The notes under the pieces: generated by a model
Seen by the model: only the letters and a program-made list of their open reading frames with translations
Told to the model about the DNA's origin: nothing
The model's database searches: none
Position numbers and translations under genes: made by a program
Source: Solidesulfovibrio sp.
GTDB lineage: Bacteria; Desulfobacterota; Desulfovibrionia; Desulfovibrionales; Desulfovibrionaceae
Direction of reading: 5' to 3'
Assembly (NCBI RefSeq): GCF_029978005.1
Contig: NZ_JARKOZ010000021.1
Location: 1 to 59,077, forward strand
Length of the DNA stretch: 59,077 nt
In this document: positions 6,589 to 20,435 of the stretch, piece after piece
Layout of the letters: every line of letters starts with the position of its first letter
How positions within the stretch are numbered: position 1 is the first letter of the stretch

Positions 6589-7335
6589 CTACAGGAACAG
6601 GCTCGCCCCCACCACCAGGATGAGCATGAGCACGATGTTCCGGAAAAGCGCCGGGTTGACCCGCTTGTTGATGCGGTTGCCGAGGTTGCTGCTCAGGTAG
6701 ATGACCGGAGCCATGGCCAGGATCAGAAGGTTGGACTCCATGTTCAGGATGCCGAGCTGCATGTAGGCCGCCAGCTTCACCAGGTTGCTGATGGCGAAGA
6801 GCAGGATCATGGTCGCCGTGAAGCAGCGCTTGTCCATCTTGCGGCCGGCGAAGTACATGGACCAGACCAACCCGCCCGCGTGGGCCAGCACCGTGGCCAC
6901 CCCGCCCAGGGCCCCGATGCAGATCGAGGAGGCGATGCCGCCGCCGACCCGGGACTCCCTGGCCGCGGCCAGCAGCCCGGCGTCCCGGAGCAGGTGGTAC
7001 AGGGCGAAGGCCACGGCGAAGCCGCCGATGCCGAGCTTGAAGATGTCGGCCGGAATGGCCTGGATGCAGTAGCTGCCGAGGGCGATGCCGACGGTCGCGG
7101 CCAGGACCACGCGCAGGATCTCCCGCCAGTCGCCCCACTCCCTCCAGTAGTTGCGCAGGCCCATGATGTCCGAGGCCAGCATGGCCGGCGCGCCGAGCCC
7201 GAGCGCGATCTTGGGCGGAAAGGCCAGGGCCAGCACGGGCAGCAGGAAGATGCCCGAGCCCACGGCGGCGCTGTTCTTGATGACGGAAGAGGCGGCCACG
7301 GCCACGCACAACACGGCGATCTGATACGGTTCCAT
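6589..7335 (-). CDS. TSUP (TauE/SafE) family permease
   Basis: A 248-residue membrane protein with about eight hydrophobic segments and the typical TauE/SafE layout: 'NSAAVGSGIFLLPVLALAFPPKIALGLGAPAMLASDI' in the first repeat and 'GALGGVATVLAHAGGLVWSMYFAGRKMDKRCFTATMI' in the second. GGGAGG stands eight bases before the start. Family members export sulfite or sulfonates or import organic acids; the substrate here is unknown. It is the last gene of the minus-strand C4-dicarboxylate operon, separated from the preceding small gene by a large hairpin. It and the PrpR-type gene (ending 6434) converge, with 154 bases between that hold no gene. Confidence 0.85.
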   Translation of the reverse strand: MEPYQIAVLCVAVAASSVIKNSAAVGSGIFLLPVLALAFPPKIALGLGAPAMLASDIMGLRNYWREWGDWREILRVVLAATVGIALGSYCIQAIPADIFKLGIGGFAVAFALYHLLRDAGLLAAARESRVGGGIASSICIGALGGVATVLAHAGGLVWSMYFAGRKMDKRCFTATMILLFAISNLVKLAAYMQLGILNMESNLLILAMAPVIYLSSNLGNRINKRVNPALFRNIVLMLILVVGASLFL

Positions 7336-7656: not shown

Positions 7657-8916
7657 TTACACCACCTCCTTCACAGGCACGGCCATGGGGTGGACGACCT
7701 CCTTGGCCGACTCCAGCAGATGCCCGAAGTGGTCCTGGAGGAACGCGCCGATCACGCCGTCGTCGGTGGTATTGCCGGCCGTGCTGAACATCGGGATCAG
7801 GCCGCTGAACACGGCCACGAAGGTCGTGACGTAGGTGGCCTGGTCGGGGACGCCCAGGAGCACGGCGATGATGGGCGACATGAAGTAGCCCGCGCCGCCG
7901 GGGATGCCCGGCGACTCCAGGCCAAGGATCATGACCGGCGGGATCATCATGATGATCTCGGTCAGGGAGATGGGGATGTTGAGGAGCTGGGACACGATGA
8001 TGGTCACGATGAGCACGGACATGGTGCTGCAGTTCTTGTTGAGCACCGTGCCGAAGACGATGGAGACCTCGGCGATGTCCTCCTTGAGCCCGAGGTCCTG
8101 CTCGGCCGAGATGATGTTCACGGCCAGGGTGTCGTAGGAGCCGCCGGTGCCGAAGCCCGTGGGCCAGACCGCGCCGTAGTAGGACAGGATCTGCTTCCAG
8201 GTGCGCTTGGTCAGCAGGCGGCACGCAAACATCATGCACACGACCCAGATGCAGGTGGTGAGCATGACCCAGAGCACGCCCTGGCCGTAGAGCGCCATGC
8301 CCTTGGCGCCGAACTTCATGGGGATGCCGATGGCCAGACAGCCGATCATGATCGGGTAGTACCAGAGCAGCTTCTTGAAGAACCACAGGATGCCGTCGCC
8401 GATGGCCACGAAGCCGTAGGCGATGCGGTGCAGGCGCTCGAACTTGGCGCTGAGCCAACCCACGAACATGGCCCCGACCAGGGCCTGGAGCAGCGGCTGC
8501 TGGGTCAGGATGTTGGCGAAGGTCTCGCCGATCTGGGTGACCCAGGCCAGTGGGCCGGGCACCTCGACCCCGGGCAGGGTGAAGGGCACGGTCGCGAACA
8601 GCGCGATCCAGCCCGTGACGTAGAGCAGCGAGATGAGGCCCATGACCAGGTACATGGTGAAGATAAGCCCGAACATCTTGCCGGCCTTGTCCTTGTGAAA
8701 GAGCATGAGCTTGGCCATGGCCGCGCTCAGGAGGTTGAAGATCAGGAAGGCGGCGAAGGTGACGATGGTCTTGGGGAAGTAGGTGCCGCTGACGAAAAGC
8801 ATGTTCACGGCTTCGTGATGCGGGAAGCTGAAGCCGAGCGCCAGGCCGACCACCAGGAATCCGACAACGCGTATGGGCAGTGGTATCTTTCCTAGATAAT
8901 GCAGGGTGAATGCCAT
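7657..8916 (-). CDS. SDF-family dicarboxylate/amino acid:cation symporter
   Basis: A 419-residue carrier of the sodium:dicarboxylate symporter (DAACS) fold with 8-10 hydrophobic segments. The conserved C-terminal half shows 'GSYDTLAVNIISAEQDLG', 'VFGTVLNKNCSTMSVLIV', 'ESPGIPGGAGYFMSP' and the substrate/cation motif 'STAGNTTDDGVIGAF' in the place of the family's N-x-x-x-D. The start chosen (MAFTLHYLGK) has GGAGGG five bases upstream; an in-frame upstream start has none. It follows the fumarase genes and precedes the small membrane protein, pointing to fumarate, malate or succinate as cargo. The match to the family is divergent, so the substrate is not certain. Confidence 0.85.
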   Translation of the reverse strand: MAFTLHYLGKIPLPIRVVGFLVVGLALGFSFPHHEAVNMLFVSGTYFPKTIVTFAAFLIFNLLSAAMAKLMLFHKDKAGKMFGLIFTMYLVMGLISLLYVTGWIALFATVPFTLPGVEVPGPLAWVTQIGETFANILTQQPLLQALVGAMFVGWLSAKFERLHRIAYGFVAIGDGILWFFKKLLWYYPIMIGCLAIGIPMKFGAKGMALYGQGVLWVMLTTCIWVVCMMFACRLLTKRTWKQILSYYGAVWPTGFGTGGSYDTLAVNIISAEQDLGLKEDIAEVSIVFGTVLNKNCSTMSVLIVTIIVSQLLNIPISLTEIIMMIPPVMILGLESPGIPGGAGYFMSPIIAVLLGVPDQATYVTTFVAVFSGLIPMFSTAGNTTDDGVIGAFLQDHFGHLLESAKEVVHPMAVPVKEVV

Positions 8917-9029
8917 AAGCCCTCCATTTACGGTTGTTGCATTGACGCCTGTGAAGACCACCCCGGCCGCGCAGGGGCGAAGGACGCCCCTGGCCGGGAT
9001 GCGCGACGCCTCGCGGGGCGGCGCGCGCC

Positions 9030-9617
9030 CTACACGCCGAGTTTTTCGTAGATCCCGGGAAGACGCGTGAGGGCCTCGACCTTGACCTCTTCGTAGAGGT
9101 TGCGGCCATGGCTATCCATGGCCACGGTCAGGGGGCCGAAGTTCTTGACCCTAAACCGGTAGAGGGCCTCGGGGTGGAGGTGCTCCCAGTAGACCTCCTC
9201 GATCGCCTCGATCTGCTGGGTTTCCAGGGCCGCCGCCCCGCCGACGATGGCCAGGTAGACCGCGCCGTGCTTTTGCATCGCCTTCAGGCTGCCCTCGAGG
9301 AGCCCGCCCTTGCCGATGATGGCGCGCACGCCGTACTTGCCGATCAGATCGGGCGAAAACCGCTCCATGCGCGTGCTGGTGGTGGTGCCGACGCAGATTT
9401 TCTCCCAGCGCCCGTCCACCTTGCGCAGGCTCGGGGCGGTGTGGATGCAGGGCGCGCCGGCCAGGCTCACGGGCGGCTCGTGGCCCTGGTCGAACATGTA
9501 GATCTGGGTCAGGTCGCGGATGCCGAAGAGCAGGCCGTCGAAGGTGACGATGTCCCCGGCGCGCAACTGGCGGATGTCTTCCTCGGAAAACGGGGAATTG
9601 AGGTGGAATGTCGCCAT
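9030..9617 (-). CDS. Class I fumarate hydratase / tartrate dehydratase, beta subunit
   Basis: A 195-residue homologue of the C-terminal half of class I fumarases (FumB-type beta subunit, TtdB). Visible motifs are 'LRAGDIVTFDGLLFGIRDLTQ', 'KICVGTTTSTRME' and 'AIIGKGGL'. It begins 14 bases after the alpha subunit stop, so the two are a pair. Together they would interconvert fumarate and L-malate with an oxygen-sensitive 4Fe-4S cluster in the cytoplasm. L-tartrate dehydratase is the main alternative, but the fumarate reductase genes in the same operon favour fumarase. Confidence 0.88.
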   Translation of the reverse strand: MATFHLNSPFSEEDIRQLRAGDIVTFDGLLFGIRDLTQIYMFDQGHEPPVSLAGAPCIHTAPSLRKVDGRWEKICVGTTTSTRMERFSPDLIGKYGVRAIIGKGGLLEGSLKAMQKHGAVYLAIVGGAAALETQQIEAIEEVYWEHLHPEALYRFRVKNFGPLTVAMDSHGRNLYEEVKVEALTRLPGIYEKLGV

Positions 9618-9631
9618 GGCGTGGTTCTCCT

Positions 9632-10513
9632 TTAGTAGCCGTAGGCGACCGCGCCGTCGGGGCTGATGACGGCCCTGGAGCGGCGGGCCGGCCAGCACTG
9701 GGTGTTCACGGCCACGGGGTTCTGGGTGATGTGGGTGTAGGCGGTCTCGATGTGCACGCCGAGGGTGGAGACGTCGCCGCCAAGGCCCATGGGACCGCGG
9801 CCGGTGGCGTTTATGGCCTCCTCCAGCTCCTCCTCCATGGCCGCCACCTGGGGATCGGGGTTGCGGCTGCCCACCGGGCGCATGATGGCGTCCTTGGCCA
9901 GCTTCATGACCAGGTCCGCCGTGCCGCCGATGCCGACGCCGATGACGCCCGGCGGGCAGGGGTTGGCCCCGGACTCGACCACCGTGTCCAAGACGAACTT
10001 CTTGAGGGCCTTGATGCCGTGGGCCGGGTAGAACATCTGCATGCGGCTCATGTTCTCCGAGCCCGACCCCTTGGGAGCCATGAGGATGTCCAGGGTGTCG
10101 GTGTCCCCGGCGAAGTCGAAGTAGATGACCGGCAGGCCCGGTCCCACCGAGGTCTGGGGATTGACCCGGGTCAGGGGATGGGTGGAGCTGCTGCGGAAGG
10201 GGAATTCCTGGGTGGCCCGCTTGGCCCCTTCGTGGAGCCGGGACTTGATGGCGAAGCCGTCCCAGGCGAATCCCGAGCCGATCTTGACCTTGTAGATGGG
10301 CAGGCCGGTATCCTGGCAGATCAGGGTCTTTTCCCGGTCCGCGATGTCGATGGCCTTGAACATGGCCTCGAAGACCGCCTTGGCCGTGGGATTGGTCTCC
10401 CGGGCCTGGGCCTTGCGCAGGGCCTGGCGCACGTCTGGGGGCAGGTCGCACAGCGCCCGGATGTAGAGCTGCTTGGCCGCCTCTTCCACGATGGAATAAT
10501 CGAACTGACGCAT
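9632..10513 (-). CDS. Class I fumarate hydratase / tartrate dehydratase, alpha subunit
   Basis: A 293-residue alpha subunit holding the 4Fe-4S cluster. The three expected cysteine sites are seen: 'ICQDTGLPIY' (about residue 65), 'ANPCPPGVIGVGIGG' (about 188) and 'NTQCWPARRS' near the C-terminus. AAAGGAGG precedes the start and the gene follows the cytochrome gene by 15 bases. Length and motifs fit two-subunit fumarases of anaerobes and TtdA equally. Gene context (fumarate reductase and a dicarboxylate carrier in one operon) supports fumarase. Confidence 0.88.
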   Translation of the reverse strand: MRQFDYSIVEEAAKQLYIRALCDLPPDVRQALRKAQARETNPTAKAVFEAMFKAIDIADREKTLICQDTGLPIYKVKIGSGFAWDGFAIKSRLHEGAKRATQEFPFRSSSTHPLTRVNPQTSVGPGLPVIYFDFAGDTDTLDILMAPKGSGSENMSRMQMFYPAHGIKALKKFVLDTVVESGANPCPPGVIGVGIGGTADLVMKLAKDAIMRPVGSRNPDPQVAAMEEELEEAINATGRGPMGLGGDVSTLGVHIETAYTHITQNPVAVNTQCWPARRSRAVISPDGAVAYGY

Positions 10514-10528: not shown

Positions 10529-11989
10529 TTATTGTTGGGAATTCATCGCGACGGGCTGACGGGCCCCGTTTCGACCGTTGTCGGTCCCCGCCTGGGCGGA
10601 ACCGCTTTTGAGGACGTCCTGGCCGCTGAGAAGCCGGACCGGGTGCTTGCCGAAGTCCAGGGCCAGGATGAAGTCGGCCAGCGCCCGGAGATCGGCCTCG
10701 GGCAGGTCGTATTTGGGCATGATGGACGTGGCGCTCACGGCCTGCGGGTTCTTGACGTAGTCGGCCAGGGAGGCCTGGGTCCGGTGCTTGGCCGTCATGT
10801 TGGCCATGTCCGGGCCGGTCCTGTGGCCGCCCTTGCCGTCGATCTGGTGGCAGTAGGCGCACTCCCGGTCGGCATAGAGGAAAAGGCCCCGCTTCTCGGA
10901 CGCGGTCAGCGCGCGGTCGGGCACGGGGATGACCTTGCCGTAGGGGCGCACGCCCTCGAAGCCCATGAGCGTCAGGTAGACGATGGCGATGACGCAGGTG
11001 ACGCCGACCCCGGTGCACAGGGGCTGGTTGGCCAGGCCCCGCAGCCGGCCCTTGCCGAGAAACGGCACGACGAAGAGGAGCGTGACGCCGAGAAACGGCA
11101 CCGCCAGGCTGCCCACGACCTCCCAGGCCCCGGAGAAGTAGGTCAGGAGCTGGAACAGCCACATGTAGTACCACTCGGGCCGGGGCAGATAGGACTCGAT
11201 GAGGGTGCCGGCGATCTCCTCCTTGACCACCCCGCTGCACACGGACAGGAGAAGGATGACGCAGAACACCCCGGCGAACACCAGGGCGCTGCGGAAGGTG
11301 TGCTCGGGATAGAAGCGGTACGGGCCGGCCTGGGCCGGGGCCTTGGCCGCGCCCGGATGCTCGGCCATGCCGTGCAGGCGGATCAGGTAGATGTGGGCCA
11401 CGACGAGCACGGCCAAAACGGCCGGCAGGAACAGGGTGTGGATGGCGTAGAAGCGCGTCAGCGTCAGGCCCGACACGACCTCGCCGCCGAGCAGCGCCCG
11501 GGTGAGGACGTCGCCCACCACCGGAATGTCCCTGGGGATGTTGGAGCTGACCACCGTGGCCCAGTAGGCCTTCATGTCCCAGGGCAGGAGGTAGCCGGTG
11601 AAGCCGAGTCCCAGGGTGACCAGGAGCAGGCACACGCCGACGATCCAGGTGCCCTCGCGCGGGGCCTTGTAGGAGCCGGAGAAGAAGCAGTGCGCGAGGT
11701 GCAGGCACACGGCCAGGACCATGGCCCCGGCCCCCCAGTGGTGGATGCCGCGCAACAGCGCCCCCATGGGCACGTCGCGCATGATGAAGTCCACGGTCTG
11801 GTAGGCCTTGTCCGGGGACGGGTTGTAGTACATGGCCAGGAAGGCCCCGGAGACGACCAGGACCAGGAACAGCAGGGCGCACAGGCTGCCGAGCGTGGCC
11901 GACCAGCCCGTGCCGGCCGGCAGTTCCTTGTACAGAAACGGGCGCAGGCGCTCGTTCCAACCGATGCGGTCAAGCACGGTGCGCAACAT
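10529..11989 (-). CDS. Cytochrome b (bc-complex type) fused to a C-terminal cytochrome c domain
   Basis: A 486-residue membrane protein. The N-terminal part is a cytochrome b of the bc1/b6f class, with heme-ligand histidine pairs in 'GIHHWGAGAMVLAVCLHLAHC' and 'FYAIHTLFLPAVLAVLVVAH', and the Qo motif as 'PEWYYMWLF'. A subunit-IV-like part and further helices follow. Residues 377-381 are a single c-type heme site, CAYCH, with a downstream methionine in 'SIMPKYDLP' as likely sixth ligand. It starts one base after the FrdB-Rieske gene, with GGAGG upstream. With that Rieske domain it would complete a quinol:cytochrome c oxidoreductase core. Confidence 0.9.
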   Translation of the reverse strand: MLRTVLDRIGWNERLRPFLYKELPAGTGWSATLGSLCALLFLVLVVSGAFLAMYYNPSPDKAYQTVDFIMRDVPMGALLRGIHHWGAGAMVLAVCLHLAHCFFSGSYKAPREGTWIVGVCLLLVTLGLGFTGYLLPWDMKAYWATVVSSNIPRDIPVVGDVLTRALLGGEVVSGLTLTRFYAIHTLFLPAVLAVLVVAHIYLIRLHGMAEHPGAAKAPAQAGPYRFYPEHTFRSALVFAGVFCVILLLSVCSGVVKEEIAGTLIESYLPRPEWYYMWLFQLLTYFSGAWEVVGSLAVPFLGVTLLFVVPFLGKGRLRGLANQPLCTGVGVTCVIAIVYLTLMGFEGVRPYGKVIPVPDRALTASEKRGLFLYADRECAYCHQIDGKGGHRTGPDMANMTAKHRTQASLADYVKNPQAVSATSIMPKYDLPEADLRALADFILALDFGKHPVRLLSGQDVLKSGSAQAGTDNGRNGARQPVAMNSQQ

Positions 11990-11990
11990 T

Positions 11991-13304
11991 TCAGCCCACC
12001 TCCACGAAGAGTTGATCGCCCTCCAGGCGGAAGGCGTAGCGGTCCAGGGGGCGCGGCGGCGGACCGGCCACGACGTTGCCGTCGCGATCGAAGGTGCCGC
12101 CGTGGCAGGCGCACAGGAACCGGCCCGACAGGGCGTCCCAGCGCACGATGCAGCCGAGGTGCGTGCAGCTCGATTTGAAGCAGACGAGGCTCTCGCCGAG
12201 ACGGGAGACGAGGACCGGCGCGGCGACCGGCTGGACGTAGGGGCCGGTCTTGAGCTCGTAGCGCAGCATGAGCGTGGTGATTTCGCCCTTGGGGATCTCC
12301 GACAGCTTGCCGAGCGGCGCCCACTGTTTCTGGCTTTTGGCCAGGGTCGGGCCCACGGCCACGCCCGTGGCGATGCCGCCGAGGACCAGGGCCGTGCCGA
12401 GGCCGATCACGCCCACGCCCACCTGGCGCAGGAAGGTCCGGCGGTCCACGGCCGAGGCGGCGTGGCGGCAAGCCTCGGGAGCGGCCTGGCCGCACGCCCC
12501 GGGAGCGGGCTGGGCCGTCGCCGGGGGGGCGTGCCTGGCCGCCGTCGGCGGCGCGGCTTCGTGCTCCCTGGGACTCGGCGCGGGCTTCGGCTCGCTGCGG
12601 GCGTGCTTGAGGGCCAGGCGCTGGATGTACTTGATGGCCCGGGTGCCGCTGATGTTTTTGGGGCAGACCTCGGTGCAGTTGAACTCGGTGCGGCAGCTGT
12701 AGCAGGAGGCGAGCGCCCGCTCGAGGCGCGGCTCGAACAGGGCGTCGCGGCTGTCGGCCAGCAGGGTGAAGGCCCTATTGAGGGCGGCCGGGCCGGCGTA
12801 GCCCTCGTGGTGGCGGCACATGGTGCAGCTCGACACGCAGCAGCCGCAGGCGATGCACTCCGTGGACAGGCCGATGTCCAGGCGTTCCCTGGAGTCCGGC
12901 CGGATCTGGGCCGGCTCGGCGTCCGCTCCCTTCGGCTCGAAGAAGGGCAGCGTCTCCTCGAACTTCTTGAAGAAGGCCTCCATGTCCACCACCAGGTCCT
13001 TGACGACCGGGAAGTGGTTGAGCGGCCGGATGGTGATCTCCTTGCCCGGGGGCAGCTGGGAGACGTTGGTCTTGCAGGCCAGGCCCTCCACGCCGTTAAT
13101 GACCATGCCGCAGGAGCCGCACATGTTCACGCGGCAGGCGTAGCGGAAGGCCAGGCTCGGGTCCTGCTCGCGCTGCAGGCGCAGCAGCACGTCCAGGATG
13201 GTGGTCGTGGTCTCGTTTTCGATTTGCAGGGAAAATGCGTCGAAGTGCCCGCTGCCGCCCTTTTCGGGGTCGTAGCGGAAGATGCGCACGGTTCTTATGC
13301 TCAT
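11991..13304 (-). CDS. Fumarate reductase/SDH iron-sulfur subunit fused to a Rieske protein
   Basis: A 437-residue fusion. Residues 1 to about 235 are a complete FrdB/SdhB: a 2Fe-2S site 'CRVNMCGSCG' with a later cysteine, and cluster motifs 'CIACGCCVSSC' and 'CYSCRTEFNCTEVCP'. An Ala/Pro-rich linker (about 235-285) leads to a twin-arginine signal-like segment (Arg288-Arg289, 'DRRTFLRQ'), one hydrophobic helix, and a Rieske domain with CTHLGC (380-385) and CHGG (400-403). The FrdB part should be cytoplasmic and the Rieske part on the other side, joined by the helix. No stop or frame break separates the parts. It sits between the membrane anchor and the cytochrome b gene. Confidence 0.93.
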   Translation of the reverse strand: MSIRTVRIFRYDPEKGGSGHFDAFSLQIENETTTTILDVLLRLQREQDPSLAFRYACRVNMCGSCGMVINGVEGLACKTNVSQLPPGKEITIRPLNHFPVVKDLVVDMEAFFKKFEETLPFFEPKGADAEPAQIRPDSRERLDIGLSTECIACGCCVSSCTMCRHHEGYAGPAALNRAFTLLADSRDALFEPRLERALASCYSCRTEFNCTEVCPKNISGTRAIKYIQRLALKHARSEPKPAPSPREHEAAPPTAARHAPPATAQPAPGACGQAAPEACRHAASAVDRRTFLRQVGVGVIGLGTALVLGGIATGVAVGPTLAKSQKQWAPLGKLSEIPKGEITTLMLRYELKTGPYVQPVAAPVLVSRLGESLVCFKSSCTHLGCIVRWDALSGRFLCACHGGTFDRDGNVVAGPPPRPLDRYAFRLEGDQLFVEVG

Positions 13305-13316
13305 GGCCGTCCCCCG

Positions 13317-13658
13317 CTAGTAGGTCGAGAACCAGATGATGCCCATGACCACGAGGCCAAGGCCGGCCAGCCCCCAGACGAGGGCGCGCTGGTATTTGAC
13401 GTCGACCAGGTTGAAGTCGAGCAGGATGACCCGCAGGCCCAGGGTGGCGTGGAAGGCGACGGCGAGCAGCAGCAGCAGCTGGACGAACGGTTTGTAGGTC
13501 AGGGTCATGTGCAGGGCCAGGAACACGATGATGGCCAGGGCCGAGATGCGTTGCCACAACCAGGCCCACATGCCGATTTTCGTGTTCTCGCGGCGGCCGG
13601 GATCCAGCTCGCCCCACTGCAACGGCTTGCGGCATTCGATCGACACGTTCCGTTCCAT
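13317..13658 (-). CDS. Fumarate reductase/SDH cytochrome b membrane anchor, short SdhD-like
   Basis: A 113-residue protein with three hydrophobic helices. The first carries 'QRISALAIIVFLALHM', the second 'AFHATLGLRVILLD'. These match the quinone-site and heme-ligand patterns (QR-x-S-A...H and H-x-x-x-G-x-R) of SdhC/SdhD anchors. It is much shorter than the roughly 200-residue five-helix cytochrome b558 anchors of epsilon- and many deltaproteobacterial enzymes, and no second anchor gene is present. AAGGAG lies eight bases before the start. It follows the flavoprotein gene and precedes the FrdB-Rieske gene. Confidence 0.85.
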   Translation of the reverse strand: MERNVSIECRKPLQWGELDPGRRENTKIGMWAWLWQRISALAIIVFLALHMTLTYKPFVQLLLLLAVAFHATLGLRVILLDFNLVDVKYQRALVWGLAGLGLVVMGIIWFSTY

Positions 13659-13708: not shown

Positions 13709-15433
13709 TTATTTCTTGTAGCTCTGGCACGCTTCCACCGACTTGTGCTTGAAGGCCACGGCCGTCTTCTCCATCCGGGGCAGACCGTCCTCCCCGCGAC
13801 GCAGGAGGATGTTGAACAGGCCGTAGTCGTCGCGCTGCTTGGGGAAATCGGTGCGGAAGTGGGCCCCGCGCGTCTCGTCGCGCTGCCTGGCCGAGGCGGC
13901 CACCATGCGGGAGACGTCGATCATGCTGCGCAGGTCCAGGGCGACGGCGAACATCATGTTGTAGGGCCGCCCGCCCGTGACCCGGAGCGCGTCCACGGCT
14001 TCGGCCAGGCGCTCGATCTCCGTCGCGGCGGCGTCCAGGTCCTCGGCGTTGCGGGCCACGCCGACCTTGTTCCAGTTGAGTTCCTGGAGCTCCCGGCGCA
14101 CCTCGAAGGGATTGACGCCCTTGTCGCGCACCAGCGGCCGGGTGAGCCGGTCCACGAGCTCCTCGACCTGGCCGCGCCGGGTCTCCTTGCGGGCAAGCTC
14201 GCTTCCGGTCAGGAACGCGCCCACGGACTTGCCGGCTTGCCGGCCGTAGACGCAGGAGTCGCAGATGCCGTTGCCGCCCAGGCGGTTGGCCCCGTGCACG
14301 CCGCCCGCGTCCTCGCCGGCCACGAACAGCTTTTCCAGAGAGGCCCGGCAGCCGGTGTCGATCACCGCGCCGCCCATGAAGAAGTGGGCCGAGGGCGAGA
14401 CCGGCACCCGGGCCCGGGCCAGGTCGTAGTGGAACTGGCGGCAGCGCTCGGCCATGCCCGGGAAGTTTCGCAGCACGAAGTCCGCGCCCAGATGGGAGGC
14501 GTCGATGTGCACCCCGCCCTCGGGGCAGGCCCGGCCCTGCATCATCTCCAGGTAGGAGGAGCGGCTGACCACGTCCCGGGTGGCCCGCTCGGCCACGTCG
14601 GGCGCGTATTGCAGCATGTAGCGCTCGCCCTTGCCGTTGAAGAGGTGGGCCCCGGCCCCGCGCAGGCCCTCCTCCAGGAGCGCCCCGGCCACCACGCTGC
14701 CCGGCACGATGAGCCCGGTGGGGTGGAACTGGAGCATCTCCATGTCCTTCATGAGGGCCCCGGCCCGGTAGAGCATGCCCAGGCCGTCCACGGTCTTCTC
14801 CGGGCCGGGGGCATGGAAGCGGTAATGGGTGGGCCCGCCGCCGGTGCCGACCATGGTGGCGGCGGCCTCGGCCACCAGGAACTCGCCCCGCCGGATGTCC
14901 AGCAGGAGCGCTCCCGTGACCACCTGGCCGGACGCGTCGAGCAGGAGTTCCAGGGCCCGCACCTCCTCCAGCACCCGGATGCGCCGCTTCATGACCTGCT
15001 CGGCCATGCGGCTGACGATCTCGATGCCGGTCAGGTCGCCCTTGTGCACCGTGCGGTCGAAGGACTGGCCGGCGAAGGGCTTCTGGTGGATGGTGCCGTC
15101 GGGGTTGCGGTCGAAGAAGCAGCCGGACACGGTCTCCAGTTCCTTGACCGTGGGCGTGGCCTGCTCGACCAGGGTCAGGGCCAGGTCCTGGTCGTTGATG
15201 TACTGCCCCCCTTTCAGGGTATCCATGAGGTGTTTTTCGTGCGAATCCTTGGGATTGAGGACGACGTTGAAGCCGCCCTGAACCATGCGGCTGCAACCGC
15301 CCTTGCCGGCGATGGCTTTTGTGACGATGAGAATGTCGAGATTAGGGTTCTTGTCGTGGGCGTAGATGGCGCAATTCATTGACGCCGCCCCCATACCTAT
15401 GATCAGTAAATCCGCCGTTACCTTCTGGACCAT
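13709..15433 (-). CDS. Fumarate reductase/succinate dehydrogenase flavoprotein subunit
   Basis: A 574-residue flavoprotein. An FAD-binding start (ADLLIIGMGAASMNCAI) is followed by substrate-site motifs 'QFHPTGL', 'RDVVSRS' (catalytic arginine), 'AHFFMGG' (histidine in place of the HYTMGG motif) and 'HGANRLGGN'. The position of the histidine that binds FAD covalently in E. coli FrdA (SHTVAAEGG) is a cysteine here ('GGCSRMVQGG'), so the flavin is probably not covalently held, as in L-aspartate oxidase. The start has GGAAGGA seven bases upstream; an ATG five codons earlier has none. It leads the operon. Gene order and the partner subunits exclude aspartate oxidase. Confidence 0.88.
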   Translation of the reverse strand: MVQKVTADLLIIGMGAASMNCAIYAHDKNPNLDILIVTKAIAGKGGCSRMVQGGFNVVLNPKDSHEKHLMDTLKGGQYINDQDLALTLVEQATPTVKELETVSGCFFDRNPDGTIHQKPFAGQSFDRTVHKGDLTGIEIVSRMAEQVMKRRIRVLEEVRALELLLDASGQVVTGALLLDIRRGEFLVAEAAATMVGTGGGPTHYRFHAPGPEKTVDGLGMLYRAGALMKDMEMLQFHPTGLIVPGSVVAGALLEEGLRGAGAHLFNGKGERYMLQYAPDVAERATRDVVSRSSYLEMMQGRACPEGGVHIDASHLGADFVLRNFPGMAERCRQFHYDLARARVPVSPSAHFFMGGAVIDTGCRASLEKLFVAGEDAGGVHGANRLGGNGICDSCVYGRQAGKSVGAFLTGSELARKETRRGQVEELVDRLTRPLVRDKGVNPFEVRRELQELNWNKVGVARNAEDLDAAATEIERLAEAVDALRVTGGRPYNMMFAVALDLRSMIDVSRMVAASARQRDETRGAHFRTDFPKQRDDYGLFNILLRRGEDGLPRMEKTAVAFKHKSVEACQSYKK

Positions 15434-15513
15434 GGTTTTTCCTTCCATTGGCGTTCGTCCATCTTGGGGATTTCCCCACTGTCCTGCGTCGTTGCACCGG
15501 CGTCTGGGCGTTT

Positions 15514-16021: not shown

Positions 16022-17644
<1,623 letters not shown>

Positions 17645-17774: not shown

Positions 17775-18617
17775 ATGAGCGGTCGCAATGACGGAATGCC
17801 GGGCGACCCCTGGCCCGGACAAGGCCGGTGCCTGGGGGGATTCTGCGTGGATTCGCCGCTGTCGGCCGAACTGGTGGTCGCCGCGGCCGAGGCCGAAGGG
17901 ACGCCCGTGGCCCTGTGCCTGGGCCCGGACCAGGCCGGACGCCCTCCCCTGCCCGCCGTGCGCCGGATCGTGTTCGAGCTGGCGCGCCAGGCCGCAGTGC
18001 CGGCGACGGTCGTGTACACGGGAGTCCGCGACCTGGGCGGGGTCGCGAACTCCCTGGACCTCGGCTGCGCCGCCATCGACTTCGACGGCTCGGCCCTGCC
18101 TTTCGAACGCAACGTCTCCCTGACCGCCGAGGCGGTGCGTCTGGCCGCCGGCACCGCCTGCCGGGTCTGGGGAGAGATCGGCGCGTTCGGCGACTTCGGC
18201 CGGGACGACCACGGCCACTGCCTCTACTACGACTATGCCGAACGCTTCGTCTGCGACACCGCAGTGGCCGGGCTGTCCATCGCCCTGCCCTCGAGCGACG
18301 GCGCGACCTCGGGCCAGGAGCGCCACCGCCTGGCCACGCTTCGGCGTCGCCTGGCCTGCGACCTGTCCCTGCACGACGCCAGCCTGCTTTCCTCCGAGGA
18401 GATCAGCGGCTTCGTGGACATCGGCCTGGCCCGGCTCACCTTTTCGCGCGGCCAGGCCCCGCCCTTTACCGGCCGCCCCCTGCCGGGCGCGAGCGCCTAC
18501 GAGCAGCGCATCAACGCCATCCGTCTCCGGCTGCGCCTTTTAAGCCGGGCCGGCCTCGCCGGCGTCCCGGCCTGTCCAACGCCCGCCGGCCCCGAACGGC
18601 CCCGGCGGAAATCCTAA
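17775..18617 (+). CDS. Class II aldolase-like protein without metal-binding histidines
   Basis: A 280-residue protein aligned by eye with class II fructose-bisphosphate/tagatose aldolases (Fba, GatY, KbaY). 'AAIDFDGSALPFERNVSLTAEAVRLA' matches the family's S-V-M-x-D-G-S-x-L-P-x-x-E-N-x-x-x-T, 'VWGEIGAFG' matches V-E-G-E-L-G, and 'YAERFVCDTAVAGLSIAL' matches the segment that follows. The zinc site H-x-D-H is replaced by 'TGVRDLGG', and the later H-G-G-S/G motif by 'LHDASLLSS'. It therefore probably lacks normal zinc-dependent aldolase activity. GGGAGGAAG precedes the start. The dehydrogenase gene follows within 12 bases. Confidence 0.7.
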   Translation: MSGRNDGMPGDPWPGQGRCLGGFCVDSPLSAELVVAAAEAEGTPVALCLGPDQAGRPPLPAVRRIVFELARQAAVPATVVYTGVRDLGGVANSLDLGCAAIDFDGSALPFERNVSLTAEAVRLAAGTACRVWGEIGAFGDFGRDDHGHCLYYDYAERFVCDTAVAGLSIALPSSDGATSGQERHRLATLRRRLACDLSLHDASLLSSEEISGFVDIGLARLTFSRGQAPPFTGRPLPGASAYEQRINAIRLRLRLLSRAGLAGVPACPTPAGPERPRRKS

Positions 18618-18628
18618 AGGAATCACCC

Positions 18629-19684
18629 ATGCCCTACCCCCTGCGCCTGCTGTCCGAAGCCGGCCAAGCCGTGCTTACGGCCCACGGCGTCCCGTCCGTG
18701 GCCGCGGCCTCGGTCATGGACGTCCTGGTCGCGGCCGAAGCCCGCGGCTTTTCCTCCCACGGCCTGCTGCGCCTGCCCAGGATCGTGGCCGGCATCGTCT
18801 CCGGAGCCATCGTCCCGGCGGCCGAGCCGTCCATCGACTTCGCCTCCCGCTGCTGCCTGCGCGTAAACGGCAGGCAGGCCCCCGGGCCCTACGCCGCCCG
18901 GCTGACCATGAACGCGGTCGTTTCCTGGGCCAAGACCGACGGGCTGTGCCTGGCCTCGGCTTCGGGCATGTCCCACTTCGGCTTCGGCGGCTATTACGCG
19001 GACATGGCCGCGGCCGAGGGCCTGGTGGGCCTGGTCCTTTGCAACACCCAGCCCGCGGCCGGCCCCTTCGGCGGGCAAAGCAAAGTGCTGGGCACCAACC
19101 CCATCTCCTTTTCCTGCCCGACCGGCGAGCCGGGCGGCGTCCCCCTCAGCCTGGACATGGCCACCACGGCCGCGGCCCGAGGACTCCTCCTGTCCCACAA
19201 GCTGCGAAGCGAGCCGCTGCCCCCGGACATCGCCGCCGGCCCGGACGGCGGCATGACCACCGACCCCGACGAGGCCCTGGCGGGCTTCCTGCTGCCCCTT
19301 GGCGGAGCCTTCGGCTTCAAGGGCACGGGCCTGGCGCTCATGGTGGACATCCTCAGCGGCGCGCTTTCCGGCGCGGCCACGGGGCTTCGGGTCAAGGGCA
19401 CCCTCGACGCCGAAACGCCCTGCACCGCCGGCTTCCTGTTTCTGGCCCTGGACCCGGCCTTTTTCTGCGGCAGGGAGCGGTTCCTGGCCGAGGTGGACCG
19501 GCTCGTGGCCGACATGCGGGGTGCCGGTCCAGACGTGCGCCTGCCCGGAGAACGGGGCCATGCCCGGGCCAAGCGGGCGGCCCGGGAGGGGGTGGAGCTG
19601 CCCCAGGCCCTGGTCGCGCGCCTGCGCGCCCTGGAGGCCGAGGCCGGGGTGTGCGTCCTGTCGCGGTCCGGCGACGCTTCGTGA
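18629..19684 (+). CDS. Malate/L-lactate (LDH2) family NAD(P)-dependent dehydrogenase
   Basis: A 351-residue member of the YlbC/ComC/LDH2 family, which oxidises L-2-hydroxy acids such as malate, sulfolactate or ureidoglycolate and has an unusual NAD(P) fold. Seen motifs include 'ARGFSSHGLLRLPR', 'GMSHFGFGGYYADMA' with the catalytic histidine, 'KVLGTNPISFSCPT' and 'GGAFGFKGTGLALMVDIL'. AAAGGA is upstream. It lies between the aldolase-like gene and a TSUP permease. Beside fumarase and a dicarboxylate carrier, malate is the simplest substrate, but sequence alone cannot decide. Confidence 0.88.
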   Translation: MPYPLRLLSEAGQAVLTAHGVPSVAAASVMDVLVAAEARGFSSHGLLRLPRIVAGIVSGAIVPAAEPSIDFASRCCLRVNGRQAPGPYAARLTMNAVVSWAKTDGLCLASASGMSHFGFGGYYADMAAAEGLVGLVLCNTQPAAGPFGGQSKVLGTNPISFSCPTGEPGGVPLSLDMATTAAARGLLLSHKLRSEPLPPDIAAGPDGGMTTDPDEALAGFLLPLGGAFGFKGTGLALMVDILSGALSGAATGLRVKGTLDAETPCTAGFLFLALDPAFFCGRERFLAEVDRLVADMRGAGPDVRLPGERGHARAKRAAREGVELPQALVARLRALEAEAGVCVLSRSGDAS

Positions 19685-19691
19685 GGTCTTC

Positions 19692-20435
19692 ATGAGTCTC
19701 GGCGCCGTATTGGCCATCCTCGCCGGCTCCCTGGCCGGCGCGTTCGTGTCCGGGGTCTCGGGCTTCGCCTTCGGGCTGGTGGCCCTTTCCTTCTGGGCCT
19801 GGCGGCTCGACCCGCTGCTGCTTGGCCCCATGGTCGTCTTCGGCTCCATCGTCACCCAGGCCACCTCGCTTTCGGCCATCTGGGGCCGCCTGGACTGGCC
19901 CCGCCTGCGGCCGTTCCTGGTCGGCGGCGTGGCCGGGGTGCCTTGCGGGGTCATGCTGCTCGGGGTCATGGACATCCGGGTCTTCAAGGCGGCGGTGGGC
20001 GTGGTGCTCGTGGCCTACAGCGCCTACCTGCTGCTGGCCCGGACCCGGGCGGGCGTCCGTTTCGGCGGCGGGCTGGCCGACGGCGCGGCCGGCTTCGTCG
20101 GCGGGGTCATGGGCGGGCTGGCCGGGCTCAACGGCCCCGCGCCCGTTTTGTGGTGCATGGTGCGGGGCTGGGACAAGGACGTGCAGCGCTCCGTGGTCCA
20201 GTCCTACATCCTGGCCATCCAGATCGTCACCTTCCTCGGCTACGCCGTGGCCGGCAAGCTCACCCGGCCCACCTTCGAGGCCTTCGGCCTGATGCTGCCG
20301 GCGGTGCTGGTTTCGGCCTGGATCGGGGTGCGGGTCTGCGAGCGGATAAGCGAATGCCTTTTCCGGCGGCTGGTCCTCGTGCTGCTCTTCTTCTCCGGCG
20401 CGGCCCTGCTGGCGGGGTCCCTGAGCGGCGTCTAG
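19692..20435 (+). CDS. TSUP (TauE/SafE) family permease
   Basis: A 247-residue membrane protein with the TSUP two-repeat pattern ('GAFVSGVSGFAFGLVALSFWAW' and 'GFVGGVMGGLAGLNGPAPVLWCMVRGWDK'), about eight helices. It starts seven bases after the dehydrogenase, so it belongs to that transcript. It differs from the first TSUP protein of the window and is more like the organic-anion branch. Substrate unknown; an organic acid made or used by the dehydrogenase is a reasonable guess. Confidence 0.85.
   Translation: MSLGAVLAILAGSLAGAFVSGVSGFAFGLVALSFWAWRLDPLLLGPMVVFGSIVTQATSLSAIWGRLDWPRLRPFLVGGVAGVPCGVMLLGVMDIRVFKAAVGVVLVAYSAYLLLARTRAGVRFGGGLADGAAGFVGGVMGGLAGLNGPAPVLWCMVRGWDKDVQRSVVQSYILAIQIVTFLGYAVAGKLTRPTFEAFGLMLPAVLVSAWIGVRVCERISECLFRRLVLVLLFFSGAALLAGSLSGV

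Follow-up and report, generated by a model that had tools for sequence, protein, structure and literature searches.

A complex II iron-sulfur subunit fused to a Rieske protein, in an operon of sulfate reducers that looks set for sulfonate breakdown

A single reading frame in the genome of a Solidesulfovibrio sp. appears to join the iron-sulfur subunit of fumarate reductase to a Rieske protein, and this raises the question of whether one polypeptide is indeed encoded here, and of what enzyme it might form a part. The gene was found in a stretch of 59,077 nucleotides, referred to below as the window, and a sequence-only reading had proposed that it ties succinate and fumarate chemistry in the cytoplasm to a bc-type quinol site on the other face of the membrane. 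The common view of complex II is that its ties to the rest of the respiratory chain are loose; here it is apparently welded to complex III. Some sulfate reducers encode a protein in which a piece of complex II is joined to a piece of complex III, within a gene set that looks made for the breakdown of a sulfonate rather than of ordinary succinate.

The fusion gene and its conservation

The frdB::Rieske gene occupies positions 11991..13304 on the minus strand and encodes 437 amino acids from an ATG start, in a single frame without an internal stop. Three Pfam domains score above their curated cut-offs, Fer2_3 at residues 5-112, Fer4_8 at 148-218 and Rieske at 328-423. The FrdB/SdhB part (residues 1-237; 12594..13304, minus strand) holds ligands for a [2Fe-2S], a [4Fe-4S] and a third cluster and also exceeds the cut-off of TIGR00384 (dhsB), and a search of the PDB matched residues 7-233 to E. 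coli SdhB (2.3e-47). It is followed by a Pro/Ala-rich linker (residues 238-287; 12444..12593, minus strand), delimited by alignment, whose length varies among relatives and which is of low confidence in the AlphaFold model. A twin-arginine motif and a transmembrane helix come next (residues 288-321; 12342..12443, minus strand): the arginines at 288-289 directly precede the sole hydrophobic segment of the protein, residues 294-318 by hydropathy, and the model places a helix at 288-321 with a pLDDT of about 57. The internal twin-arginine and helix segment of the sequence-only reading is therefore present. The C-terminal Rieske [2Fe-2S] domain with the motif CACHGGTF (residues 326-437; 11994..12329, minus strand) is modelled as a block with pLDDT values of about 80-96, and its residues 362-436 match the Rieske protein of cytochrome b6f (3e-16). 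Note that the model as a whole has a mean pLDDT of 62.9 and a pTM of 0.35, so its Rieske end is usable and most of FrdB is not. From this architecture we infer a topology with FrdB inside and the Rieske domain outside. The motif CACHGGTF lacks the Ser and Tyr that raise the potential of Rieske clusters, and their absence would suit menaquinol. The fusion is the only Rieske match in the window genome at E<=0.001.

A scan of genome contigs returned 29 relatives, of which 25 match over FrdB and the other four over the Rieske part only. FrdB and Rieske share one frame in 24 of these 25, while L052 is cut by a contig end; L031 and L046 are each truncated on one side, and a run of N interrupts the Rieske part of L051. 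Desulfovibrio cuneatus DSM 11391 (L033) is a carrier available in culture. Within the family the fusion was detected in 12 of 288 genomes (11 at full length, with G032 cut at a contig end), and the single-frame reading extends to the 10 full-length family matches besides the window and to 4 matches from the phylum. The phylum sample, comprising 395 genomes, yielded 18 matches: six window-type fusions, one distant fusion (G657) and eleven proteins with FrdB only. As evidenced by the alignment of 32 distinct sequences with the domain pair in one frame, the eleven FrdB cysteines C57, C62, C65, C77, C150, C153, C156, C160, C204, C210 and C214 are invariant, and so are the Rieske ligands C380 and H382. 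C398 and H401 are found in 31 of the 32, the exception being L051 with its run of N at this point, and the twin arginine is complete in 31 (R288 in all, R289 in 31).

The fusion is thus confirmed as real, one conserved frame. A sequencing error that hides a stop between the domains, the refutation anticipated at the outset, did not turn up, as the relatives share the frame; an error or a chance frame is ruled out by the single-frame relatives together with the invariant ligands. Production of a separate Rieske protein from an internal start was also considered. A start codon lies within 5 codons of the RR pair in 9 of the 32 sequences, the window's own GTG included, and a Shine-Dalgarno-like AGGA accompanies one of these nine; such a start is not conserved, and a second, separate product is hence unlikely as a rule. 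The idea of a contaminant contig is unsupported, since an unrelated gene of the window has relatives of 71-87% identity in the 13 other genomes of the genus. The fusion occurs in 1 of 14 genomes of the genus while that unrelated gene is present in all 13 others, which suggests that the window genome gained the fusion horizontally. Three genomes of the same genus, G004, G012 and G005 (loci L023, L026 and L027), have a separate Rieske match, which in two of them adjoins a distant cytochrome b. At 21 of 23 ordinary FrdB loci that were checked, most of them reaching about 1.5 kb to either side, there was no Rieske, cytochrome b, TauE or SuyAB match nearby.

Operon partners and the proposed complex

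The gene belongs to an operon in the order frdA-frdC-frdB::Rieske-cytb::c-fumA-fumB, all on the minus strand. The first gene (13709..15448) encodes an FrdA-like flavoprotein with Pfam matches to FAD_binding_2 and Succ_DH_flav_C, the motifs GKGGCSRMVQGG and LLEEG in alignments and no hydrophobic segment by hydropathy. FrdC (13317..13658) is an anchor of 113 amino acids with about three transmembrane segments (Pfam Sdh_cyt), in which R37, H50, H70, R76 and D81 are conserved in 27 of 27 rows. Directly after the fusion follows a cytochrome b of the b6/subunit IV-like type with a PEWY motif, itself fused to a C-terminal monohaem cytochrome c with CxxCH (10529..11989; Pfam). Its four haem ligands are conserved, and H83, H84, H97, H184, H199, CxxCH and M424 are found in 29 of 29 rows, some of them identical; the Qo motif in these rows is PEWY in 26, PDWY in L046 and L051 and PEWF in L093. 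With such a cytochrome b as the next gene, the suggested tie to a bc-type quinol site is well founded. The operon ends with the alpha (9632..10513) and beta (9030..9617, start codon inferred) parts of a class I hydratase. The FumA-like alpha part exceeds the cut-off of NF004885 and is a proposed sulfoacrylate hydratase, and the FumB-like part does so for TIGR00723 over the portion 9096-9635.

Downstream on the same strand lie an SDF dicarboxylate-type symporter (7657..8961; Pfam SDF), a candidate importer with a 78% relative beside the operon in L042, and a TauE/SafE family exporter (6589..7335; Pfam TauE). Divergent from the operon, on the plus strand at 16022..17644, a GAF-AAA sigma-54 protein (Pfam) is a candidate regulator, with relatives of 37-49% identity in 13 of 25 loci. 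A further plus-strand cluster adjoining the operon (17775-20435) contains a class II aldolase, a member of the malate/L-lactate dehydrogenase family Ldh_2 and another TauE/SafE gene, and could also serve sulfonate metabolism. Across the 25 fused loci, matches were obtained for FrdC in 24, FrdA in 23, cytochrome b in 23 and the FumA-like protein in 18. FrdA was missed in L046, which begins at the fusion, and in L048, where a scaffold gap lies just upstream of FrdC, and both misses of cytochrome b are contig ends. L047 has no fumarase match within 8 kb on either side; in L049 and L053 the fumarase is upstream of frdA. The FrdA match is split over two frames in L043 and L075, possibly through assembly frameshifts.

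Taken together, the operon has the look of a complex II tethered to a complex III, which would act as a substrate:cytochrome c oxidoreductase via quinone. The cytoplasmic FrdA would oxidize a succinate-like acid, and the clusters of FrdB would relay the electrons to menaquinone at FrdC. The tethered Rieske domain, presumably carried into the periplasm by Tat, would oxidize the resulting quinol at the Qo site of cytochrome b, and the electrons would exit through the fused cytochrome c. Dual Sec-Tat insertion is known for cofactor-containing membrane proteins (eLife 26577). Tethering might hand quinol directly to an acceptor of higher potential, as would be needed where menaquinone is of low potential and its pool reduced. 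The sequences make us lean towards a single membrane complex of II and III, with 3-sulfopropionate as the most likely substrate in the clade of the window and succinate in the G657 type. With the fusion, quinone channelling could be studied in a naturally occurring system, and so could Tat export where a folded three-cluster protein precedes the exported domain. As for the acceptor, heme-copper oxidase genes occur in 5 of 12 fused and 71 of 276 other family genomes (p=0.31), and such an oxidase was discarded as the linked terminal acceptor for lack of a significant association. NrfA is present in 10 of the 12 fused genomes, the only ones in which it was counted.

The proposed assembly shares with complex II the domain content of FrdA and FrdB, the three FrdB cluster motifs and an anchor with conserved Arg, His and Asp, but its B subunit continues at the C-terminus into a Tat helix and a Rieske domain, neither the FAD-binding His nor the active-site Thr is present in its FrdA, and it has a single anchor with about three transmembrane segments. 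With the bc1, b6f and bcc complexes it has in common the Rieske ligands, the haem b ligands, PEWY, a c-type haem and a Rieske domain behind a twin-arginine helix; in contrast to them, the Rieske domain is the C-terminus of FrdB instead of a subunit of its own, and cytochrome c is joined to cytochrome b. A Rieske cluster is also involved in the class F complex II Sdh1 of Mycobacterium smegmatis (PDB 7D6V), whose A subunit has a similar loop insertion. That cluster, however, is embedded in the membrane within a six-helix anchor (PMC10238741), whereas the Rieske domain of the window is of the bc type and follows its own helix on the B subunit, with a cytochrome b gene adjoining and an FrdC of 113 amino acids.

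A second fusion type and unfused relatives

The distant fusion G657 represents a second kind, matched in 8 of 60 genomes of the order to which G657 belongs. In G657, G674 and G689, sdhB::Rieske is read in one frame. In the other five of the eight, sdhA, sdhB, Rieske and cytochrome b follow one another as separate genes, and the Rieske frame, counted from its first Met, shares a few bases with the end of sdhB; split sdhB and Rieske neighbors of this kind are the expected order before fusion. The SdhA of G657, the only one of the three fused genomes whose motifs were read, is canonical with RSHSGEAQGG and LMTEG, and the fusion adjoins SucCD-like and 2-oxoacid oxidoreductase-like genes, as judged by sequence reading alone. 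Succinate is most likely the substrate of this type.

Unfused arrangements were found as well. In family f20, a separate Rieske gene and a cytochrome b::c gene precede frdA, frdC and an unfused frdB, and fumarase genes lie upstream in L126 and L127. The f20 operons further encode, after frdB, a long protein whose only CxxCH lies near the N-terminus (L124 7561-10248, L125 6032-8455, L126 9490-11142, L127 197-3820), the L127 copy having no Pfam match. The f49 loci L128, L129 and L130 comprise FrdC-FrdB-FrdA, with the FrdA of the window's subfamily, and they also carry two TauE-like genes and a sigma-54 regulator; in the stretch examined there was no match to Rieske, fumarase or SuyAB. In the FrdB tree the window clade joins f20 (97/93), then a haloarchaeal sequence (94/90) and f49 (89/89), with the G657 type standing apart. 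In the cytochrome b tree it groups instead with the G657 type, with weak support (81/83), and apart from f20. To us this suggests that complex II was paired with bc modules repeatedly and that at least two fusions took place, although the tree support falls short of proof.

A literature search, for which subscription papers were mostly out of reach, found neither fusion described, and the sequence-only reading likewise knew of no described enzyme with the fusion of the window; the accessible text of PMC10238741 and PMC12727194 likewise describes neither.

The flavoprotein and its probable sulfonate context

The residues of FrdA bear on the identity of the substrate. Where solved complex II proteins carry RSHT-type motifs, the protein has GKGGCSRMVQGG, and its LLEEG replaces their (M/V)TEG. 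The histidine for covalent FAD is absent, with no His in KAIAGKGGCSRMVQGG, and the replaced Thr of the TEG motif is an active-site residue at the dicarboxylate site. Because the FAD histidine is missing and Glu stands for Thr, FrdA is by its sequence a distinct subfamily for which succinate is not the obvious substrate, and the name "fumarate reductase" is doubtful. Covalent attachment of FAD makes the potential higher by about 100 mV, and succinate oxidation depends on it (PMC10238741), so that the loss of this histidine speaks against succinate oxidation and fits reduction or a substrate of lower potential. The motif GKGGC[ST]RMVQGG recurs in the FrdA relatives with a recovered N-terminus, except in L050, where an unrelated-looking ORF of 23% identity was picked, and EEG and C[ST]RMVQGG are also found in the FrdA relatives of f20, f49 and haloarchaea. 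At E<=1e-110, the 12 of 288 family genomes that have an FrdA of this subfamily are precisely those that carry the fusion.

By analogy, the operon fits a sulfoacrylate route step by step, with 3-sulfopropionate in place of succinate, 3-sulfoacrylate in place of fumarate and sulfolactate in place of malate. FrdA would convert 3-sulfopropionate to 3-sulfoacrylate, and FumAB would hydrate the latter to sulfolactate. SuyAB would then release pyruvate and sulfite, and sulfate reducers would reduce the sulfite to sulfide. SuyAB does cleave sulfolactate in Desulfovibrio sp. DF1 (Burrichter 2018, PMC6278857), and SuyAB-like and HIBADH-family genes lie near several fused operons, as in the DF1 pathway; in that strain, however, sulfolactate is made from DHPS by NAD dehydrogenases, and the accessible part of the account contains no FrdABC/FumAB route. 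3-Sulfopropionate is a product of sulfoquinovose breakdown in an anaerobe, and respiration of Bilophila is supported by it as a source of electron acceptor, by a route left for investigation (Chen 2024, PMC11489063). A thesis cited there has Roseovarius degrade 3-sulfopropionate via sulfoacrylate and sulfolactate, and a 2026 review calls the mechanism of its breakdown unclear (PMC12890257).

Operons of the fused kind are flanked by SuyAB-like, TauE/SafE, Ldh_2 and TRAP genes. Of the 25 fused loci, many of which are short, 11 have a SuyB relative near the operon and 6 have one of TauE/SafE. At E<=1e-100, SuyB is present in 12 of 12 fused and 56 of 276 other family genomes (Fisher 1.4e-8, relatedness ignored), and at E<=1e-40 in 12 of 12 and 83 of 276, respectively. 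In 8 of the 12, it is found on the fusion contig within about 4 kb of the operon. Outside the family, two of three further genomes with the window-type fusion, G559 and G596, have SuyB at 83-84%, and the SuyB beside a fused operon is 66% identical to that of Methylobacterium. The FrdA subfamily also occurs on 17 plasmids (E<=1e-90) of other bacteria and haloarchaea, presumably mostly aerobes, all 17 homologs with the GC[ST]RMVQGG and EEG motifs. Among the 14 annotated records, fumA/fumB accompany it in 12 and a gene of the argininosuccinate-lyase family argH in the other 2; TauE/SafE is present in 11, a UxaA-family (SuyAB-like) pair in 4, and a sulfate exporter or sulfite dehydrogenase in 6. 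Note that these are raw counts without a background rate, and that L098 was read with a shorter flank. Several observations count against the sulfonate reading. In 4 of the 12 fused genomes of the family, among them that of the window, SuyB is on another contig, and G313, the third fused genome outside the family, has no close SuyB, its best match being at 38%. The f20 operons have distant SuyB relatives only (<=38%), two of the three f49 genomes have none, no sulfur gene was seen in 2 of the 14 annotated plasmid loci (L163, L164), and no locus among the 29 relatives of the genome contig scan is titled Bilophila.

Gene order and the co-occurrence with SuyB tie the window FrdA to sulfonate breakdown. 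The sequence-only reading is thus supported in part: the succinate/fumarate chemistry that it suggested is doubtful in the window clade and fits the G657 clade, with its one canonical SdhA and TCA-type neighbors. The main rival remains ordinary C4-dicarboxylate chemistry, in which a succinate dehydrogenase or fumarate reductase fused to Rieske would act with fumarase for growth on succinate, fumarate or malate. This would agree with a FumA above the NCBIfam cut-off for fumarate hydratase, with the dicarboxylate-type symporter and with the G657 fusion, read as lying beside SucCD-like genes. We consider it rather unlikely for the window, where FrdA lacks the FAD histidine and carries the Thr-to-Glu change, where the fusion co-occurs with SuyB across the family and where the same genome has two other FrdAB loci with fumarase-like matches (L134 and L135; genes of L123, L131, L134 and L135 were located by tblastn).

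Rieske/cytochrome b::c units normally take electrons from quinol, and this argues against a reversal of the pathway, in which sulfolactate would be converted via sulfoacrylate to 3-sulfopropionate as an electron sink and TauE would export the product. The sulfite dehydrogenases and sulfate exporters of the six plasmids likewise fit oxidation. The reverse direction therefore seems improbable to us, even though non-covalent FAD would fit a reductase (PMC10238741) and TauE of E. gilvus has been called a probable 3-sulfopropionate exporter (PMC11489063). Another succinate-like sulfonate, such as sulfosuccinate, with the complex otherwise as proposed, would fit the same neighboring genes, and the substrate-site residues of FrdA are unlike those of known enzymes. 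Yet SuyAB acts on sulfolactate (PMC6278857), which 3-sulfopropionate would yield and which leaves such a substrate with very little probability, the more so as 3-sulfopropionate is known to be formed by an anaerobe (PMC11489063).

With 3-sulfopropionate as the preferred substrate, we tentatively put forward a broader proposal, which may well not hold in all its parts: a covalent complex II-III would have arisen at least twice from adjacent sdhB and Rieske genes, and in sulfate reducers it would be the 3-sulfopropionate:cytochrome c oxidoreductase that is missing as the first step in the respiration of 3-sulfopropionate. Because quinone would be passed on within a single complex, the oxidation of a succinate-like acid could proceed even in a membrane with low-potential menaquinone. 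If the substrate is indeed 3-sulfopropionate, the operon provides candidate genes for a step called open in two recent papers, on the route from sulfoquinovose to hydrogen sulfide. Caution is also called for with operons of this kind, where a gene annotated as "fumarate reductase" or "fumarase" may encode an enzyme that acts on sulfonates. The window genome has its SuyA/SuyB-like pair on another contig (G000 C10, L123 9471-10906), where a TctA relative and a sigma-54 regulator lie close by. At the SuyAB loci of two fused genomes (L132, L133), TRAP and HIBADH-family matches are present, and L133 also contains a LarA-type lactate racemase, perhaps for sulfolactate.
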